A stretch of 63,865 bases of DNA. Source: Actinomycetota bacterium. GTDB lineage: Bacteria; Actinomycetota; Aquicultoria; Aquicultorales; Aquicultoraceae. The notes below the pieces were generated by a model. That model worked only from the letters and a program-made list of their open reading frames with translations, was not told the origin of the DNA and made no database searches. Shown here one piece after another: positions 2,169 through 20,247 of this stretch (the first letter of the stretch is position 1; the number at the start of each line of letters is the position of its first letter). A program made the translations under genes and the position numbers. The DNA lies in the NCBI GenBank assembly GCA_030018005.1, contig JASEGT010000003.1:1-63865 (forward strand), written 5' to 3'.

Positions 2169-3125
2169 TTACTCCTCCTTCGTTTTAGTCTCTGCTGGCG
2201 CACTCTTATTGAGGAGCGCCTCCCAGACCGCATCCACATCGGCCTGCAGCTCATCAAGGAGCGGTTGCTGTTCTTCGGCGAGCAGATGGCGGAAGCGTCC
2301 CTGCAGCTCCAGGTATTCGGCAAGCGGCTTTTTCTGCTTCGGCTTTACCGTTACCCGGTAGACGCCGTCTACCACCTCATAGAGTGGCCAGTAGCAGGTC
2401 TCGACGGCGAGCTTTGCCGCCTTCATGCTTGCATGGGGCTCGATGCGCCAGCCCGGGACGCACGGCTGCAGGATATTCAGAAAGGAAGGCCCCTCGGTTG
2501 CAAGCGCCTTTTGCACCTTGGTCATCAGGTCGCGCCAATGGCCCGGTGCGGCCTGAGCCACGTACGGGATGCGGTGGGCTACAACGATATCGGTGAGTGG
2601 TTTTTTCCTTATCGTCTTGCCCCTGCCGACCTTGCCGAGCGGCGTGGTTGTAGTCCAGGAGCCGTAGGCGCTTGCGCTCGAGCGCTGCATCCCGGTGTTC
2701 ATATAAGCCTCGTTGTCGTAGCAGATATAGGTGAAGTTATGCCCGCGCTCGAGCGCACCCGAGAGCGCTTGCAGGCCGATATCGTAGGTGCCGCCGTCAC
2801 CGCCGATGGCGATAAAACGGATGTTCTCGGCTACCTTGCCTTCTTCTCTGAGCGCCTGGTAGACTGTTTCCACACCGGAGATTGTCGCCGCACTATTTTC
2901 AAAAGCGCTGTGGATCCAGGGCACCTTCCAGCTTGTGTAGGGGTAGATGCTGGACCCCACCTCCAGACAGCCGGTTGCATTCGAGATGACGACCGGGTTT
3001 TCGACCGCCATGAGCACTTGGCGAATTATAGTTGCGATGCCGCAGCCCGCGCAGAGCCGGTGCCCGCCGGTAAATAGCTCGGGTTTGTTTGTGAATTTCT
3101 TTAAGTTTACAACCACATCTACCAC
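2169..3125 (-). CDS. porB: Pyruvate:ferredoxin oxidoreductase, beta subunit
   Basis: 318 residues. It binds thiamine diphosphate and a [4Fe-4S] cluster and, with PorA, PorD and PorG, oxidises pyruvate + CoA to acetyl-CoA + CO2 with reduction of ferredoxin (reversible). Visible features: GGHRLCAGCGIATIIRQV near residue 20 (two cluster Cys), ATGCLEVGSS near 50 (third Cys), the ThDP motif IGGDGGTYDIGLQALSGALERGHN starting about residue 107 and ending in YDNEAYMNTGMQRS. The fourth cluster Cys is in LQPCVPGW near residue 222. Last gene of the minus-strand operon, 79 bp after porA. Length is normal for the four-subunit enzyme. The highly charged C-terminal tail ending in KTKEE is slightly longer than usual. 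Confidence 0.95.
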   Translation of the reverse strand: MVDVVVNLKKFTNKPELFTGGHRLCAGCGIATIIRQVLMAVENPVVISNATGCLEVGSSIYPYTSWKVPWIHSAFENSAATISGVETVYQALREEGKVAENIRFIAIGGDGGTYDIGLQALSGALERGHNFTYICYDNEAYMNTGMQRSSASAYGSWTTTTPLGKVGRGKTIRKKPLTDIVVAHRIPYVAQAAPGHWRDLMTKVQKALATEGPSFLNILQPCVPGWRIEPHASMKAAKLAVETCYWPLYEVVDGVYRVTVKPKQKKPLAEYLELQGRFRHLLAEEQQPLLDELQADVDAVWEALLNKSAPAETKTKEE

Positions 3126-3204: not shown

Positions 3205-4386
3205 TTATTCTCGTAAGCTCAGGTAATACACCGGATCCGACATCTTGCCCGCATCGGTGGCTTTTTTGAGCTCGCCAAAGACTTCACGCACATCGTCGAC
3301 GCCGACGTCACGGCCGCCAAGCCCGTAGACGACATCGAGCAACAGTGGTCGGGCCTCGGTCTCGTAAAAGGCCGCTTTGACCTCAATACCGACCGGTCCG
3401 CCCCAACCGGAGAGGCTCTCAGACCGATCCATCACCGCAACCGCTTTTAGCGGTTCGAGGGCTTCGCGAATGGCGTCTTTTGGGAAGGGACGGAAGGTGC
3501 GAATTCTAAGCGCGCCCGCGGCGACGCCCTCGTCACGGAGTCGATCGACCGCATACTCGATGGTGCTCGCCGTAGAGCCCAGGCTTACCAGGGCGACCTC
3601 GGCATTATCGAGCCGGTATGCCTCTACCGCGCTATAGCGGCGCCCGGAGAGGGAAGCGTACTCCTCCGCGATCTCCCTAACAGCGCGCTCCGCGGTCGCC
3701 ATCGCCTCGACCTGCTGGCGGCGGTACTCGAAATAGAAGTCATAGAGGGCGAGGGGTCCGTAGGTGACCGGGTTCGCGATATCGAGCAGCGGGTACCGGG
3801 GTGTAAAGCGGCCGACAAAGCCCTTTACCTGCTCCTCAGCGAGCACCTCCAGGTCCATCAGGCTGTGTGAGACCGAGAAGCCGTCGTAGCAGACCATAAC
3901 CGGTAATCGCACCTCGTCATGCTCGGCGATGCGCACCGCCTGGATGAGGGTATCGTAGACCTCCTGGACGGTCTTGCAGTATAGCTGCACCCAACCGCTA
4001 TCACGCGCGCCCATGGTATCGGAGTGGTCGCCGTGGATGTTGATCGGGGCCGAGAGCGCCCGGTTGGCCACGCCCATCACGATGGGCAAGCGGAGTCCCG
4101 AGGCGATATACAGCATCTCCCACATGTAGGCGAGCCCCTGGGAAGCGGTTGTCGTCATCACTCGACCGCCCGCCGCCACGCCGCCGATACAGGCGCTCAT
4201 GGCGCTGTGCTCGCTCTCGACCGGTAGGAACTTCGTTTTTACCTTACCATCGGCGACGAACTTGGCGAATTCCTCGACCACCTCGGTTTGCGGGGTGATA
4301 GGGTAGGCCGCCACCATGTGTGGTTCCACCTGGCGCATTGCCTGTGCGCACGCCCCGTTTCCAGTGTATGCAACCCGTATGGCCAT
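3205..4386 (-). CDS. porA: Pyruvate:ferredoxin oxidoreductase, alpha subunit
   Basis: 393 residues. The N-terminus reads AYPITPQTEVVEEFAKF, the pyruvate-binding domain signature of 2-oxoacid:ferredoxin oxidoreductases, followed by ESEHSAMSACIGGVAAGGRVMTTTAS. The middle has MGVANRALSAPINIHGDHSD, seen in the pyruvate rather than the 2-oxoglutarate branch. The C-terminal half is the transketolase-C-like domain ending in VVYGLGGRDVGVDDV. ATG (4384-4386) overlaps the TAA of the upstream acidic ORF as TAATG, so translation is probably coupled. Complex partners are PorB, PorG and PorD encoded on either side. Confidence 0.95.
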   Translation of the reverse strand: MAIRVAYTGNGACAQAMRQVEPHMVAAYPITPQTEVVEEFAKFVADGKVKTKFLPVESEHSAMSACIGGVAAGGRVMTTTASQGLAYMWEMLYIASGLRLPIVMGVANRALSAPINIHGDHSDTMGARDSGWVQLYCKTVQEVYDTLIQAVRIAEHDEVRLPVMVCYDGFSVSHSLMDLEVLAEEQVKGFVGRFTPRYPLLDIANPVTYGPLALYDFYFEYRRQQVEAMATAERAVREIAEEYASLSGRRYSAVEAYRLDNAEVALVSLGSTASTIEYAVDRLRDEGVAAGALRIRTFRPFPKDAIREALEPLKAVAVMDRSESLSGWGGPVGIEVKAAFYETEARPLLLDVVYGLGGRDVGVDDVREVFGELKKATDAGKMSDPVYYLSLRE

Positions 4387-4760
4387 TATTCTTCATCCTC
4401 CCGACGTTCGCACCAGGGTGAGCTGTTGGGCTTATTGCGCGTGGGCGGCTCCCAGTTCTCGTCCTGGTCGAGTTCGGCCGAGGGCCAGAAATCGGGGTTG
4501 CCCGGCTCGGGGGACTCATCCTCCTCGCCGTGGCGCGCCACCTCTTCTCGTCCGCTATCGTGATGAAGTTTGTGCGACTCAGTGGTCGCCTTGCCCTTGG
4601 ATGGCCATTCACACCGGTACTCGGCCTTGTGCTCGGCCTCGGCACTCTTCTCGGGCTCACCCTTGTGGTGCGTCCCGTACACGTCGGTTTCTCCCTTGTC
4701 TGCCGGTTCATTGGGTAATTCATCTTCGGTTTTAGAAAATGTCACGGCTATCAGCCCCAA
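4386..4760 (-). CDS. Acidic, low-complexity hydrophilic protein between porD and porA
   Basis: A frame of about 124 codons between porD and porA, using the same GC-rich third positions as its neighbours and ending in the TAATG overlap with porA, which argues that it is translated. The product is dominated by E, D, K, P, G and H (for example ending PWCERREDEE), has only two Cys and almost no hydrophobic core, and so is predicted to be disordered. The start is uncertain: TTG 4760 or GTG 4745. I do not recognise it and standard por operons lack it. It could be an assembly factor or electrostatic ferredoxin docking element; this is speculation from position and charge. Confidence 0.6.
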   Translation of the reverse strand: MGLIAVTFSKTEDELPNEPADKGETDVYGTHHKGEPEKSAEAEHKAEYRCEWPSKGKATTESHKLHHDSGREEVARHGEEDESPEPGNPDFWPSAELDQDENWEPPTRNKPNSSPWCERREDEE

Positions 4761-4780: not shown

Positions 4781-5134
4781 CTATGGCTCTTCGGTCATGG
4801 CTATCGCATCAACCGGGCACTGCTCGGCACAAACGCCACAACCTTTGCAACGGTCGTAGTTTATCCCGATAATCTTTTCGTTTTTTGTCAGGTATGCCCC
4901 GTCCGGGCAATACATCCAGCAGATCATTCACTGGATGCACCGTTCTTCTATCCAAATTGCCTTTTCAGTACGCCAGTCGCCGGTATGGTAGCGGTCGGCG
5001 TTTCCCGCATCCGCAATCACCGCGCCTTCGATGATCTCGCCCCAACCCGGTTTCCCCTTGATTCCCTCAATGGGCTCGCCATCATAGATGTGCAGATGGT
5101 CGCGCGCGTTTCCATAGGGACGCTCTTCGCTCAT
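4781..5134 (-). CDS. porD: Pyruvate:ferredoxin oxidoreductase, delta (2x[4Fe-4S] ferredoxin) subunit with in-frame TGA (candidate Sec)
   Basis: 117 codons if TGA 4928-4930 is read through. The first 68 codons hold the PorD N-terminal domain and end in EERCIQ. After TGA the same frame continues MICWMYCPDGAY and then CKGCGVCAEQCPVDAIA, stopping at TAG 4781-4783. PorD needs two CxxCxxCxxxCP motifs; here the first reads C-IQ-[TGA]-MI-C-WMY-CP, so TGA stands exactly at the second cluster ligand. A hairpin 23 nt downstream resembles a bacterial SECIS. I infer selenocysteine; a TGC-to-TGA mutation or sequencing error is the alternative. Sec at the same type of site is known in some HdrA proteins. 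It overlaps porG by 4 bp. A standard caller would report only the 68-residue fragment. Confidence 0.8.
4892..4913 (-). promoter_or_regulatory. Candidate bacterial SECIS hairpin in porD
   Basis: Starting 15 nt after the porD TGA, the coding strand forms GTA(T)TGCCC-GGACG-GGGCATAC: eight base pairs with one bulged T and a five-base loop starting GG. The loop starts 24 nt after TGA. Bacterial SECIS elements place a small loop with an early G at about 16-37 nt. Part of the stem is dictated by the conserved CPDGA codons, so this alone is weaker support than in the other three genes. Confidence 0.55.
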
Positions 5135-5694
5135 TCGCCGTGCACCTCCTCGTGCGCGCGCCGTAGCGCGTCAATGTTGGCCTGTAGCGCCTTGGGGCTT
5201 AGCTTCGGACCAAAGAGCGTTCGCAACTCCTCCTCGATAGCGTCAATACTCAGTATCGCAGTAGCTTTAATTAGCGCGCCGAGCATTGGCGTATTGGTGA
5301 TGGGCCGCCCCATGGTCTCGTTGGCAATGGTTGTCGCGTCAACGGCAAACACTTTACCGTGGCTAAGCCCGATCTCGTCGCGCAAGTGCTGAGCTGAGTG
5401 CCGGCAGTTGACGATTACCGTGCCATCCCCGACGAGTCCCTTAGTAAACGGGATTTTACCGACGAGCGTGCGGTCGAGAACAACGACGATGTGCGGCGAG
5501 GTAACGTGGGAGAAAAGCTTGATCGGATCGTCATCTATTCGCGTGAATGCCTGAACGGGCGCACCGCGCCGCTCCGGCCCATACTCGGGAAATGCCTGTA
5601 TATGCTTGTTCTGGGCCAGCGCCGCTGCGGCAAGCACCTTGGCGGCCGTCACCACGCCTTGGCCGCCCCTGCCATGCCAGCGTATCTCTACCAT
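5131..5694 (-). CDS. porG: Pyruvate:ferredoxin oxidoreductase, gamma subunit
   Basis: 187 residues, normal for the gamma subunit. It starts VEIRWHGRGGQGVVTAAKVLA, the signature of the 2-oxoacid oxidoreductase gamma domain, followed by QAFPEYGPERRGAPVQAFTRI and, near the C-terminus, MLGALIKATAILSIDAIEEEL. This subunit contributes to CoA binding and to the alpha-beta interface. First gene of the minus-strand operon porG-porD-ORF-porA-porB, sharing ATGA with porD. The promoter must lie in 5695-5990, which also contains a decayed deacetylase fragment on the other strand. Confidence 0.95.
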   Translation of the reverse strand: MVEIRWHGRGGQGVVTAAKVLAAAALAQNKHIQAFPEYGPERRGAPVQAFTRIDDDPIKLFSHVTSPHIVVVLDRTLVGKIPFTKGLVGDGTVIVNCRHSAQHLRDEIGLSHGKVFAVDATTIANETMGRPITNTPMLGALIKATAILSIDAIEEELRTLFGPKLSPKALQANIDALRRAHEEVHGE

Positions 5695-5990: not shown

Positions 5991-6038
5991 TTGACTATTA
6001 GCGATTCCCCGGCTTATAATATCAATGGAAATTGATAT
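5991..6038 (+). promoter_or_regulatory. Promoter with ArsR-type operator
   Basis: TTGACT (5991-5996) and TATAAT (6015-6020) are separated by 18 bp. A perfect inverted repeat, ATATCAAT-GGAA-ATTGATAT (6019-6038), overlaps the -10 end and contains ATCAA-N6-TTGAT, the classical ArsR/SmtB box. The regulator gene starts just downstream, so autorepression released by a metalloid or metal is inferred. Confidence 0.75.
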
Positions 6039-6075
6039 AACAGGCATTGATATGTTCAATCAGAATGGGGACGTC

Positions 6076-6444
6076 ATGGAGAAGTGTTGCGTCAAAGGGA
6101 CGACGGAATTCAAACAGCTCGAAGAACTCTCGACCTATCTGAGAATCATCGCCGACACCAACCGCCTGCAGATTCTTTGCCTCCTCAAGAAAGGCGAGCG
6201 CTGTGTCTGTAATATCCATGAACCGCTGGGTTTGCCGCAGAATCTCGTCTCCCATCATCTCAAGACCTTGCGGGATGCCGGTCTAGTCATCGCCCGCCGT
6301 GAAGGCAAGTGGGTGCACTATCGCATCGATATCGGGAAGCTTAACTACTTAACCGACCTATACAACCATGTGGTTTTAGGAGGATTTGATGAAAATCAGA
6401 GTATTGGGACCGGGATGTGCAAACTGCAAGAAGCTCGAAGCTAA
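6076..6444 (+). CDS. ArsR-family transcriptional repressor
   Basis: About 122 residues from ATG 6076, chosen because GGGGA (6067-6071) precedes it; ATG 6025 lies inside the operator. The winged-helix region contains RIIADTNRLQILCLLKKGERCVCNI followed by LGLPQNLVSHHLKTLRDAGLV and the wing RREGKWVHYRID. CVC in helix alpha3 is the As(III)/metal-sensing site of classical ArsR proteins, and CC near the N-terminus may add ligands. The stop overlaps the start of the mini-thioredoxin gene by 56 bp, in a different frame. With the permease downstream it forms a metalloid or metal export operon. Confidence 0.9.
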   Translation: MEKCCVKGTTEFKQLEELSTYLRIIADTNRLQILCLLKKGERCVCNIHEPLGLPQNLVSHHLKTLRDAGLVIARREGKWVHYRIDIGKLNYLTDLYNHVVLGGFDENQSIGTGMCKLQEARS

Positions 6445-6622
6445 CGTCTCTGAAGCCGCCGCCCAGCTCGAACTCGACGCTGATATCCAGAAGGTGGAGG
6501 ACATTCAAGAGATCATGAGCTACGGCGTACTATCGACGCCCGGGCTCGTCGTCGATGGCGTTGTCAAGATAAGCGGGCGCGTGCCGAGTGTTGCAGAGAT
6601 CATCGCTATTTTGAAGGGTTAG
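6389..6622 (+). CDS. Small thioredoxin-fold protein (redox-active disulfide protein 2 type)
   Basis: 77 residues from ATG 6389; AGGAGG (6378-6383) lies 5 nt upstream. It starts MKIRVLGPGCANCKKLEANV, a CxxC active site at residues 10-13, followed by the cis-Pro loop in VLSTPGLVVDGVVKISG. These mini-thioredoxins are found next to ArsR regulators and YraQ/ArsP permeases, where they are thought to handle thiols or reduce the substrate for the exporter. The start is nested in the end of the arsR-like gene. Confidence 0.9.
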   Translation: MKIRVLGPGCANCKKLEANVSEAAAQLELDADIQKVEDIQEIMSYGVLSTPGLVVDGVVKISGRVPSVAEIIAILKG

Positions 6623-6624
6623 AT

Positions 6625-7578
6625 ATGTGGCAGAAGGCTGTCGATTGGCTTGTATATAGCCTCTTTGGTTTTGGTAGGACGTCGATTTTGGGTGGAGCAA
6701 TCGATTTCTTTATCTATGACATGGTGAAGATACTCGTTATGTTAACCGTCATCATCTACGCGATGGCGATTGTCCGCTCGTTCGTACCGCCTGAAAAGGT
6801 GAGGGTCGTGCTGTCGAAGAAGAACGAATATGTCGGCAACGTGCCGGCCGCGCTCTTCGGTATCATCACGCCGTTTTGCTCGTGCTCGGCCGTGCCCCTC
6901 TTTATCGGATTTATCGAGGCGGGGGTGCCGCTCGGTGTGACCTTCTCGTTCTTAGTCGCTTCACCGATGATAAACGAGATAGCCGTGGGTCTCTTGTGGA
7001 CGCTCTTCGGCTGGAAAATCGCGCTTATCTATGTCGTCTCGGGCCTGGTCATCGCAGTCGCCGCCGGCATTCTTATCGGGCGCCTCGGCCTTGAGAAGTG
7101 GGTCGAGGATTTCGTCTATCAGATAAAAGTGGGCGCAAGCACTGGGGAGGCCATGCGGCTTACCTGGAAGAACCGCTCCGATGACGCAAAGGGCTATACT
7201 GTCGACCTAGTCAAGAAAATCGCCCCGTATATCGCGCTCGGTGTTGGTATCGGCGCCTTTATCCACGGCTACGCGCCGGAAGAGTTTATCTCGCGGGTGG
7301 CCGCTAAGACGAATCCGTTCGCGGTTCCGGTCGCCGTTCTCATCGGTATTCCGCTCTACTCGAATGCGGCCGGTACCATCCCGATTGTGACAACCCTTAT
7401 CGGCAAGGGAGTCCCCATGGGCACGGCTTTAGCCTTTATGATGTCGGTCACCGCCTTAAGCCTTCCCGAGCTGATAATCCTTCGAAAGGTGCTGAAGAAG
7501 CCGCTGCTCGCGACTTTTTTTGCAGTAGTCGGCGTTGCCATTATCTTTACCGGTTATCTTTTTAATCTGGTCATCTAG
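6625..7578 (+). CDS. ArsP/YraQ-type permease (UPF0718)
   Basis: 317 residues with about eight hydrophobic segments. The first repeat has the hallmark TPFCSCSAVPLFIGFIEAG, with vicinal cysteines, followed by FLVASPMINEIA. The second repeat has IPLYSNAAGTIPI and ALSLPELIILRKV. Characterised ArsP members export trivalent organoarsenicals and roxarsone; other family members are linked to copper or zinc, so the substrate stays open. It starts 2 bp after the mini-thioredoxin gene and lies in the operon of an ArsR with a CVC site, which favours arsenic. Confidence 0.85.
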   Translation: MWQKAVDWLVYSLFGFGRTSILGGAIDFFIYDMVKILVMLTVIIYAMAIVRSFVPPEKVRVVLSKKNEYVGNVPAALFGIITPFCSCSAVPLFIGFIEAGVPLGVTFSFLVASPMINEIAVGLLWTLFGWKIALIYVVSGLVIAVAAGILIGRLGLEKWVEDFVYQIKVGASTGEAMRLTWKNRSDDAKGYTVDLVKKIAPYIALGVGIGAFIHGYAPEEFISRVAAKTNPFAVPVAVLIGIPLYSNAAGTIPIVTTLIGKGVPMGTALAFMMSVTALSLPELIILRKVLKKPLLATFFAVVGVAIIFTGYLFNLVI

Positions 7579-14384: not shown

Positions 14385-14551
14385 TAACACGATAAAATGG
14401 CGCCGGAATAGGCTCTCGTGATGTCTTATTGACCCAGGCTTAGCGCCTACCGAAAAATGGATGTTTCGGTCTGTGGTAGAATGCGTCATAATAGAGATGA
14501 TGTATCTACGGGTCGTGTTAGCATGTATTTTCGCGCTTGCAAGGGTGACAC

Positions 14552-14920
14552 ATGGATCAGGAGCCAAAGCTTAGAGTAACGATAATCTACGCGCACGTGC
14601 CCCGCTCGGGTTGAGGGCCTCGCTTTACAGCTGGTAGCTGTTTCGATGAGGACTTCGTGTCCCAAGCGCAGGCTCTTCACGACGACCTATCCACTAACTT
14701 TGGAGTGCAAATCGAGTGCGTCCTTCACAACATTTTCTTCGATAACCCTGCTGATGTCGGAGACCTGGCAGACAGGGTCGCCTGGGACGGTTTGAAGCTC
14801 CCAGTAGTTTTTATCGGCGACGAGCCGGAGCTTGTCGGCTATATCGACGAGCCGACGGTAAGCGAACTACTGATGGAACGCGGCTTGAAATCTAACCGCC
14901 AAGAACCGGACGAGCTCTAG
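14552..14920 (+). CDS. Thioredoxin-fold selenoprotein candidate (SGU...C type)
   Basis: 122 codons with in-frame TGA at 14612-14614 (codon 21). The N-terminus reads MDQEPKLRVTIIYAHVPRSG, then TGA, then GPRFTAGSCFDEDFVSQAQAL, with strand-helix-strand alternation and a possible cis-Pro segment LKLPVVFIGDEPELVGYID. This is a thioredoxin-like layout in which U21 and C29 would be the redox pair. Downstream of TGA is the best SECIS-like hairpin of the window (14618-14651). Without recoding only a fragment from GTG 14657 would be called, which has no proper N-terminus. I do not recognise a named family. It lies about 320 bp before the [NiFeSe] hydrogenase operon, same strand. Confidence 0.75.
14618..14651 (+). 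promoter_or_regulatory. bSECIS hairpin of the SGU protein
   Basis: A perfect six-pair stem ACAGCT-GGT-AGCTGT (14627-14641) has a GGT loop beginning 19 nt after TGA. A second helix, CCTC (14618-14621) with GAGG (14648-14651), closes below it. Loop GGU and the spacing match bacterial SECIS rules (G in the first two loop positions). Confidence 0.75.
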
Positions 14921-16354: not shown

Positions 16355-17989
16355 ATGGCAAGAAAAAAAGTTATCATCGACCCGATTACGCGTATCGAAG
16401 GACATCTCCGCATCACTTGTATTGTCGAAGACGGCAAGGTGACCGAGGCGTGGAATACCGCGACGCTATTCCGGGGATTCGAGATTTTCATGAAAGGGCG
16501 TGACCCGCGGGACGCCTGGCACTTCTCGAGCCGCATCTGCGGCGTATGCCCGACACCGCACGCCTGGAATTCCGTGCGCGCAACGGAAGAGGCTTTTGGC
16601 ATCGACAAGATGGACGACAACACTCGCCTTATCCGCAATATGATGGAAGCGACACAGGTAGGCTACGACCACATCCTGTGGTTCTATATCCTCAATGCGT
16701 TTGATTTCGTCAACGTCCCCAACGCCCTCAATGCTAAACCGACCTTGCCGTCGCTCAAGGCCGTCCAGGAGCGCGTGCTGGCGGTGGTCAAATCCGGACA
16801 GCTCGGCCCCTTTGCGAATATGTATTGGGACCATCCCGGCTACAAGTTACCGGCCGAGCTCGACCTTGAGCTGACCGCACATTACCTCCAGTCTATAGAT
16901 GTCCAGCAGGCCGCAAATGATGCCGCCGCATTTATGGGTGGCAAGTTCCCGATGATAATGAATTATGCGCCTGGCGGCATCACCCAGCTCCCAAGTATCG
17001 ACGAGATACTCTATTATCAGGGCCGCATGCGCGAGGTCAAAGATTTTGTCGACAATGTTATGGTGCCCGACCTGCTGGCAATCGCGCCCTACTATATCGA
17101 TTTGGCGCAGACGGGGAAGGGAGTCGGCAATTATCTTACCTGGGGTCTTCTCGATGAGGCGAGCCAGGACCCGTACGACAGGCTTTTTCCGAGGGGCGCG
17201 ATTTTCGACGGTAAGCTACAGGTTGAGAAGGTCGACCCGAATGAGACCCGGATGTATACGAAGTACTCGTGGTTTGGTGATGATGTAGGCGGCGGCAAGC
17301 ACCCGCTCGATGTGGGGCAGGAGCCGATAGAGTTCACCAAGCTCGACCCGCTCGACAATGAAGGGCCGGTCGAGGGTAAGTACGACTGGACGCAGGCGGT
17401 GCGCTATGGCAAGGAAGACCGCCCGATGGAGGTCGGCCCGCTCGCGCAAATGCTCGTCGCCTACCTCGCGGGACGCGAGGACACAAAGAAGGTCGTCGAT
17501 GATACCCTGGCTGCCATTGGGGCCGCCGGCAAACCCGAAGTACTCATGTCCGACCTCGGCCGTATCGCGGCGCGCGTGCTAAAGGCTAAAGTAAATGCGG
17601 ATAATGCGCTTCGCTGGTCGGACGAGCTTCTAGCCAATATCGGCGCCGGTAAGACCAAAGTCTTTGAGTCGCGACCGGTTCCCGCTACCGGCGAGGGAAA
17701 AGGCGGCTGGGACGCGCCGCGCGGCGCGCTCTGCCACTATATGCGCATCAAGGACGGCAAAATCGACACCTATGCCGCAGTGCCCCCTTCTAACTGGAAT
17801 CTCTCACCGCGCGACGACAAAGGCGTGCGCGGGCCGGTCGAGGAGGCCTTAGTCGGGCAGAGCGTCGTCGACCCGGACAGGCCGCTTGAGATTTTGCGGG
17901 TAGTCCATTCGTTCGACCCGTGAATGGCGTGCGCGGTTCACGTGATTGAACCGAAATCCAACCGGATTCTAGAGTTCAGAGTCGGCTAG
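16355..17989 (+). CDS. [NiFeSe] hydrogenase large subunit (selenocysteine-containing)
   Basis: 544 codons with TGA at 17921-17923 read as Sec (position 523). The N-terminal active-site motif is SSRICGVCPTPHAWNSV (two Ni ligands). The C-terminal motif, always DPCxxCxxH, appears as HSFDP-[TGA]-MACAVH, followed by VIEPKSNRILEFRVG and TAG 17987-17989. TGA thus encodes the Sec ligand of [NiFeSe] enzymes, and the residues after the His are the extension removed by the maturation protease encoded downstream. A SECIS-like stem follows at 17934-17953. If TGA is taken as a stop the protein loses half its Ni ligands. Such enzymes are fast H2 catalysts that recover easily from O2. Partners: small subunit and cytochrome b. 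Confidence 0.93.
17934..17953 (+). promoter_or_regulatory. bSECIS hairpin of the hydrogenase large subunit
   Basis: A perfect 7-bp stem CGGTTCA/TGAACCG (17934-17940 with 17947-17953) and a six-base loop CGTGAT. The loop begins 18 nt after TGA and has G in position 2 followed by T. This fits the spacing and loop rule for bacterial SECIS elements. Confidence 0.8.
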
Positions 17990-19926: not shown

Positions 19927-20247
19927 ATGGACATCGAGTTGTTGTATTTTACAGGCTGACCGAAGTTCGAGGATGCGCAGGATGTGCTGGCGGAAGCATT
20001 GCAAGAACTCGGTATCGACCAACCTGTTCGCATCATTAACGTCCAGGACGACGAGGAAGCGCGTTCAAAGCGTTCCCTGGGCTCGCCGACAATACGCATA
20101 AACGGGCTCGATGTCGACCCGCTCGCCCGAGCATCCACGGATTTTGCGATGAAATGCCGAATCTATCGGGTCGGTGACGGCATACAAGGATATCCCAGCA
20201 AAGACATGGTAGTAGCGGCACTGAAAGAAGCTCTGGACGCGATCTGA
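19927..20247 (+). CDS. Thioredoxin-like selenoprotein (FTGUP type)
   Basis: 106 codons with in-frame TGA at 19957-19959 (codon 11). It begins MDIELLYFTG-[TGA]-PKFEDAQDVLAEAL, where related thioredoxin-fold proteins have GCP. The rest has RSLGSPTIRINGLDVDPLA with the cis-Pro loop and KCRIYRVGDGIQGYPSKD. TAGGAG (19915-19920) is correctly placed for ATG 19927, upstream of the TGA, so ribosomes must meet the TGA to make the conserved domain. A short SECIS-like stem follows. A thiol/selenol redox or peroxide-reducing role is likely by family, but no substrate can be named. A standard caller would report only codons after TGA. Confidence 0.82.
19975..19987 (+). promoter_or_regulatory. Candidate bSECIS hairpin of the FTGUP protein
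   Basis: GCGCA-GGA-TGTGC forms five pairs (one G-T) with loop GGA starting 21 nt after TGA. Spacing and early loop G fit, but the stem is short, so the call is less firm than for the hydrogenase. Confidence 0.5.

Follow-up and report, generated by a model that had tools for sequence, protein, structure and literature searches.

The delta subunits of four-subunit pyruvate:ferredoxin oxidoreductases (POR), which contain two CxxCxxCxxxCP motifs and are encoded in operons with porC, porA, and porB (TIGR02179; 9bt4 chain G), are the closest described relatives of the protein analyzed here, which is like them in sequence, motifs, and operon. It differs from known PorD proteins in motif 1, where a putative selenocysteine (Sec) stands for the second Cys, and by an additional gene, coding for a small protein, between porD and porA. 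The usual places of Sec are catalytic sites and sites of thiol redox chemistry, whereas in PorD it would ligate a ferredoxin-type cubane, with a structural role and a part in electron transfer. Sec is only rarely known as an Fe-S cluster ligand, HdrA being such a case. The 119 prokaryotic selenoprotein families and subfamilies listed in a review of May 2026 include Sec forms of HdrA, of the HgcB ferredoxin, and of an Fe-S cluster domain protein, but neither PorD nor any other POR subunit (PMC13188914). Hence, Sec in Fe-S proteins is not new as such. A literature search for Sec together with POR or PorD, or with Aquicultor, returned nothing relevant (the match for PorD was a porphyranase). A previous sequence-only reading of this DNA knew of no described Sec-containing PorD, in agreement with the absence of PorD from the 119 families. 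The Sec-PorD described below is thus a predicted new selenoprotein family, with Sec at a ligand position in a ferredoxin-type subunit of a central-carbon enzyme.

The window, i.e., the whole stretch of 63,865 nucleotides that was analyzed, contains on its reverse strand a porD gene (4781..5134) for the delta subunit of a 2-oxoacid (pyruvate):ferredoxin oxidoreductase of 117 residues, including Sec69. The reading frame starts with ATG at 5134 and stops with TAG at 4781-4783, and its sole in-frame interruption is a TGA codon (4928..4930, reverse strand), around which the translation reads ...RTEKAIWIEERCIQ-U-MICWMYCPDGAYLTKNEKIIGINYDRCKGCGVCAEQCPVDAIAMTEEP. This codon occupies the second Cys position of motif 1 (C66-x2-U69-x2-C72-x3-C76-P). 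Both CxxCxxCxxxCP motifs are present (C66/U69/C72/C76 and C96/C99/C102/C106), Sec replacing one Cys. By the motif logic of 2[4Fe-4S] ferredoxins, cluster I would be held by C66, U69, C72, and C106, and cluster II by C96, C99, C102, and C76. The translated protein qualifies as a member of TIGR02179 (PorD_KorD; 98 bits for a curated cut-off of 60.05) and stays below the cut-off of the narrower model NF040684 (PorD_Arch; 99.9 versus 120). It also aligns to the delta subunit of a solved POR structure, 9bt4_G (E 1e-18), which has Cys at the site of Sec69.

The neighboring genes on the same strand complete the enzyme. Upstream, porC (gamma subunit; 5131..5694; TIGR02175, 209 bits) overlaps porD by 4 nt. 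Downstream lie a gene for a small acidic protein of 124 aa without family match (4386..4760), porA (alpha subunit; 3205..4386; NF040682, 488 bits, below the cut-off of 550), and porB (beta subunit, with TPP and the proximal cluster; 2169..3125; NF008819, 368 bits, below the cut-off of 405). The order porC-porD-orf-porA-porB is observed in the genome of the window (G000) and in three others (G001, G005, and G007), so that porD shares an operon with the genes of the other three subunits, as expected of a PorD. The small acidic protein is kept in every operon of this POR type, and its homologs are found only in these four genomes and, as a fragment, in G011. The Sec lineages retain two of its Cys (YRCEWP and SSPWCER), and the fragment of G011, a genome with a Cys-PorD, reads SSPWEER. 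On sequence grounds, the Cys of SSPWCER may be linked with the Sec of PorD. Adjoining the por operon, on the forward strand (6025-7578), there is a cassette coding for an ArsR/SmtB regulator, a thioredoxin-like protein, and an SaoE/SO_0444-like permease, probably for the efflux of a metal or metalloid.

Orthologs were searched in 99 relatives and then in 396 genomes of the phylum. Exactly one TGA is found in the orthologs of G000, G001 (97% identical), G007 (80%), and G005 (78%), i.e., in three genera of one family of uncultured anaerobic bacteria (Candidatus Aquicultoraceae, Actinomycetota), and it is the same codon in all four, which come from four separate assemblies. A pattern search of the 11 family genomes examined found Sec-PorD in exactly these four; in the other seven, the Sec-type por operon is missing and the only POR is of Cys type. 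Sec-PorD is therefore dispensable. The four genomes with Sec-PorD also have a second, Cys-type POR operon, whose porA, porB, and porC are ∼50-57% identical to the Sec-type ones. In G011, which is placed in the same order but in a sister family, the orthologous operon is spread over two contigs (64% identity for porC, 68% for porA, and 70% for porB) and has Cys (TGC) at the site. As selB is found in G011, the Cys of its PorD is not due to a lack of Sec machinery. All the Cys-type homologs that were read have Cys (TGC or TGT) at position 69 of PorD. The sequence-only reading would have been refuted by TGC or TGT alone at this position, without TGA in any strain; instead, TGA is found in all four family orthologs and Cys only in the ortholog of the sister family.

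The phylogenetic tree of PorD places the four Sec proteins in one clade (99/96), with the Cys protein of G011 as its sister (99/97) and Cys in all other branches. Since the Sec clade is monophyletic and nested among Cys homologs, a single replacement of Cys by Sec is the simplest history. Comparisons between genera give a dS of 0.66-1.9 or saturation. The dN/dS past the TGA is 0.05-0.10, and it is equally low before it. A frame left untranslated after the TGA would not show such purifying selection.

A degenerate CxxUxxCWxxCP codon pattern was also scanned over 84,980 species genomes, giving 75 stretches in which every frame was read. The sole PorD is that of the Candidatus Aquicultor primus MAG (contig MELI01000084.1), apparently one of the four genomes. 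This pattern fixes Ile/Val/Met after the first Cys and Trp after the third, and a Sec-PorD with CTxU or without the Trp would escape it. The remaining stretches are chance matches, apart from one ferredoxin-like ORF in an Acholeplasmataceae MAG (JAAYAE010000280, 4300-4520, reverse strand). It codes for a single-cluster ferredoxin with TGA, possibly a Sec codon, at the second cluster Cys (CIG-TGA-GACWAICP), a ligand position identical to that of PorD, and no tRNA-Sec was found above the cut-off in this genome.

The machinery for Sec insertion is encoded in the genome of the window, where tRNA-Sec/selC (72.6 bits, anticodon UCA), selB (381 bits), selA (624 bits), and selD (358 bits) lie side by side (contig C48, 1610-6342). 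The selD gene has one in-frame TGA of its own (...KSG-U-AAK). Among the 42 tRNA genes that could be typed (one weak extra match gave no gene), tRNA-Sec is the only one with a UCA anticodon; tRNA-Trp has CCA, and the single tRNA-Cys, of 75 nt with GCA, is of the ordinary kind. The typed set contains no second gene resembling tRNA-Sec. TGA is a normal stop for other genes of the window. Additional SelB-like proteins are found in some relatives, beside or instead of a full-length SelB (G007:C5:69417-70289 and 86119-86991, G009:C31:84081-84959 and 100726-101598, G010:C42:73-945, and G011:C60:11501-12628). These have 398-429 aa (633 aa in G011) and match mainly the first 266 positions of SelB (359 in G011).

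Three other genes of the window, all on the forward strand, are of Sec type. They emerged when frames were extended past TGA codons at gene ends and in gaps, and a codon-usage scan missed all three. One is the large subunit of a [NiFeSe]-type hydrogenase (16355-17986, TGA at 17921-17923), with the C-terminal sequence ...HSFDP-U-MACAVH; its operon partners are the small subunit, a cytochrome b, and a maturation protease, and standard gene calling would cut the large subunit at the TGA. Another is a DF-family selenoprotein (19927-20244, TGA at 19957-19959; NF049942, 109 bits for a cut-off of 70) with the motif TG-U-P. The third is a small protein (14549-14917, TGA at 14612-14614; ...VPRSG-U-GPRF...) without NCBIfam match, with a hairpin with a GGU loop 18 nt downstream, which is possibly an undescribed selenoprotein family. 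The sequence-only reading had put the TGA where the first CxxCxxCxxxCP has its second Cys, with the frame open through both motifs, had counted three further genes of Sec type in the window, and had held that the organism very likely inserts Sec. The reading frame and the alignment of homologs agree with the first of these, and the three genes just described are those of the second. As for the last, selA, selB, selC, and selD are all present, and their absence, which would have refuted the reading of Sec in PorD, is excluded.

Downstream of the TGA, the porD transcript can form a bSECIS-like element (4892..4913, reverse strand), GUAU-U(bulged)-GCCC[GGACG]GGGC-AUAC, whose loop begins 23 nt after the UGA. 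The core hairpin is UGCCC[GGACG]GGGCA, and the best fold extends the stem, with a bulged U. The bulged-U arrangement is reminiscent of the Escherichia coli fdhF element. The rules for bSECIS elements demand a loop of 3-9 nt with G in the first two positions, a stem of 4-16 bp, a loop 16-37 nt after the UGA, and an energy of −7.5 kcal/mol or lower (PMC13188914). They are met in three of the four genomes (−8.3 kcal/mol in G000 and G001, −7.6 in G007, loop at 23 nt). The element of G005 is weak: its best rule-conforming hairpin has −3.4 kcal/mol, with one mismatch per half, and misses the strict energy limit. No comparable element was found in any of 21 Cys-type homologs (best −5.4, at a different place in the sequence). 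In G007, a U-A pair of the lower stem has become C-G through one synonymous substitution on either side (Tyr TAT to TAC and Ala GCA to GCG), a single compensatory change. The hairpin energy is reached by 2.4% of the codon-weighted synonymous shuffles made for the window, by 9% of those for G007, and by 3.7% of those for G005, and the 8-pair form of the stem arises in 8% of synonymous shuffles. Because the Cys-Pro-Asp-Gly-Ala codons favor the stem, the hairpin is not an independent proof. The position and the GG at the loop start had been correctly described from the sequence alone, but the hairpin, partly dictated by the invariant C-P-D coding sequence and weak in one of four species, is only moderate evidence, supportive and not decisive. 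A TGA at 4967 and further TGAs let through by a loose SECIS filter were dismissed as lying in shadow frames.

Other explanations of this codon must be weighed. All the genomes are draft assemblies with many contigs, which leaves room for a sequencing or assembly error, or for a strain-specific mutation. This is refuted by the identical TGA in four separate species genomes, one apparently that of Candidatus Aquicultor primus (MELI01000084), so the chance of such an error is negligible. If UGA were a true stop, PorD would be split or decayed into an N-terminal piece of 68 residues and a reinitiated C-terminal piece with one cluster. An ATG directly follows the TGA (TGAATG) in all four genomes, and the same genomes have a second, intact Cys-type POR, as such a decay would allow. 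Yet the C-terminal piece would lose two ligands of cluster I, whereas C72 and C106 are kept; selection is equally strong on either side of the codon; there is no drift to TAA or TAG, though synonymous sites are near saturation between genera; and every homolog has Cys at the site, the three genera have an intact operon, and the genome encodes Sec machinery. We consider a true stop very improbable.

Special tRNAs that recode UGA as Cys have been described in clostridia, and Cys is the ancestral residue here, so one could imagine that UGA is read as cysteine (tRNA-ReC type), or else as tryptophan. Given that, of the tRNA genes found, only tRNA-Sec carries the UCA anticodon, that tRNA-Trp and the lone tRNA-Cys are conventional, and that TGA is a normal stop in the window, there is scarcely any support for this. 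It may also be that Sec is inserted but that the iron it binds is labile, with either a [3Fe-4S] form or an oxidation-sensing Se-S redox switch as the outcome. The second-ligand position is naturally variable in ferredoxins, being Asp in some archaeal ones. Furthermore, cluster I of the Sulfolobus ferredoxin is [3Fe-4S] (PMC5020499). Nothing speaks directly against a labile iron, but no other ligand and no fold motif is altered, and we hold it to be unlikely. That PorD is a selenoprotein is, in our judgment, highly probable, with Sec insertion in the cell being inferred, as protein or transcript evidence is lacking.

As a selenoprotein, PorD would be made by decoding UGA codon 69 as Sec through SelA-SelB-SelC-SelD, aided by the stem-loop just downstream. 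The selenolate of Sec69 would take the place of the second Cys thiolate in [4Fe-4S] cluster I; this binding to iron is inferred from the alignment with Cys homologs and solved structures. Cluster I would probably be the medial cluster, accepting electrons from the proximal cluster of PorB ahead of the exit cluster. In a model of Sulfolobus ferredoxin with OFOR, cluster I of the dicluster ferredoxin adjoins the proximal cluster (14 Å), with contacts via residues beside its ligands (PMC5020499), and the medial position of Sec69 is inferred by homology with it. The replacement would have occurred once, in an ancestor within Aquicultoraceae, and the Sec-type POR would be a second isoenzyme next to the Cys-type POR encoded elsewhere in the genome. 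Because the Sec-PorD genomes keep the Cys-type operon, the two isoenzymes could possibly be exchanged according to selenium supply; fmdB of Methanopyrus kandleri is a Sec/Cys pair that responds to selenium (PMC4807772). The explanation as a whole, with PorD a selenoprotein, Sec69 on cluster I, and Cys replaced once within Aquicultoraceae, seems to us well supported. That this is a natural selenolate-ligated [4Fe-4S], the medial cluster of POR, and that the single replacement was kept for a functional gain is likely, if with more reserve.

The role of selenium is less clear. That Sec could tune the potential of the cluster, as had been suggested from the sequence alone, is speculation and unproven. 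In a [4Fe-4S] peptide maquette, Sec in place of one Cys ligand had little effect on the potential (PMC10946529), which argues against a large shift and leaves the advantage of Sec unexplained. We therefore prefer, only tentatively, that the benefit of selenium lies in shielding the cluster from irreversible oxidation or in faster electron transfer at it. Protection from over-oxidation has been argued for [NiFeSe] hydrogenase (PMC13188914).

Sec-PorD adds a family to the catalog of selenoproteins, and in the Aquicultoraceae lineage standard gene calling would presumably cut PorD short. The Cys-type isoenzyme of the same cell and the Cys ortholog of the sister family are natural controls, and the effect of one selenium ligand on a [4Fe-4S] cluster, previously approached with synthetic maquettes and Se-substituted clusters, becomes testable in a real enzyme. 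Among known systems, the HdrA selenoprotein (NF040770, CxxU) is likewise an Fe-S subunit that transfers electrons within an anaerobic enzyme and has Sec in place of a Cys; it also exists in Sec and Cys forms, but it belongs to another enzyme with another fold, in methanogens and some bacteria. The HgcB ferredoxin (NF040864, GVGU) and the Fe-S cluster domain protein (NF005503, UxxC) are ferredoxin-like with a predicted Sec, as is PorD, but these are other families with another motif context, and neither is a POR subunit. The maquette Mq6 (PMC10946529) also has one Cys ligand of a ferredoxin-type [4Fe-4S] changed to Sec, but it is a synthetic peptide, with Sec at the first ligand and not the second, and little change in potential. 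In [NiFeSe] hydrogenase, one of which is encoded in the same window, Sec is a metal ligand in anaerobic redox metabolism, as predicted for PorD; there, however, it is bound to the active-site Ni and not to an electron-transfer cubane.
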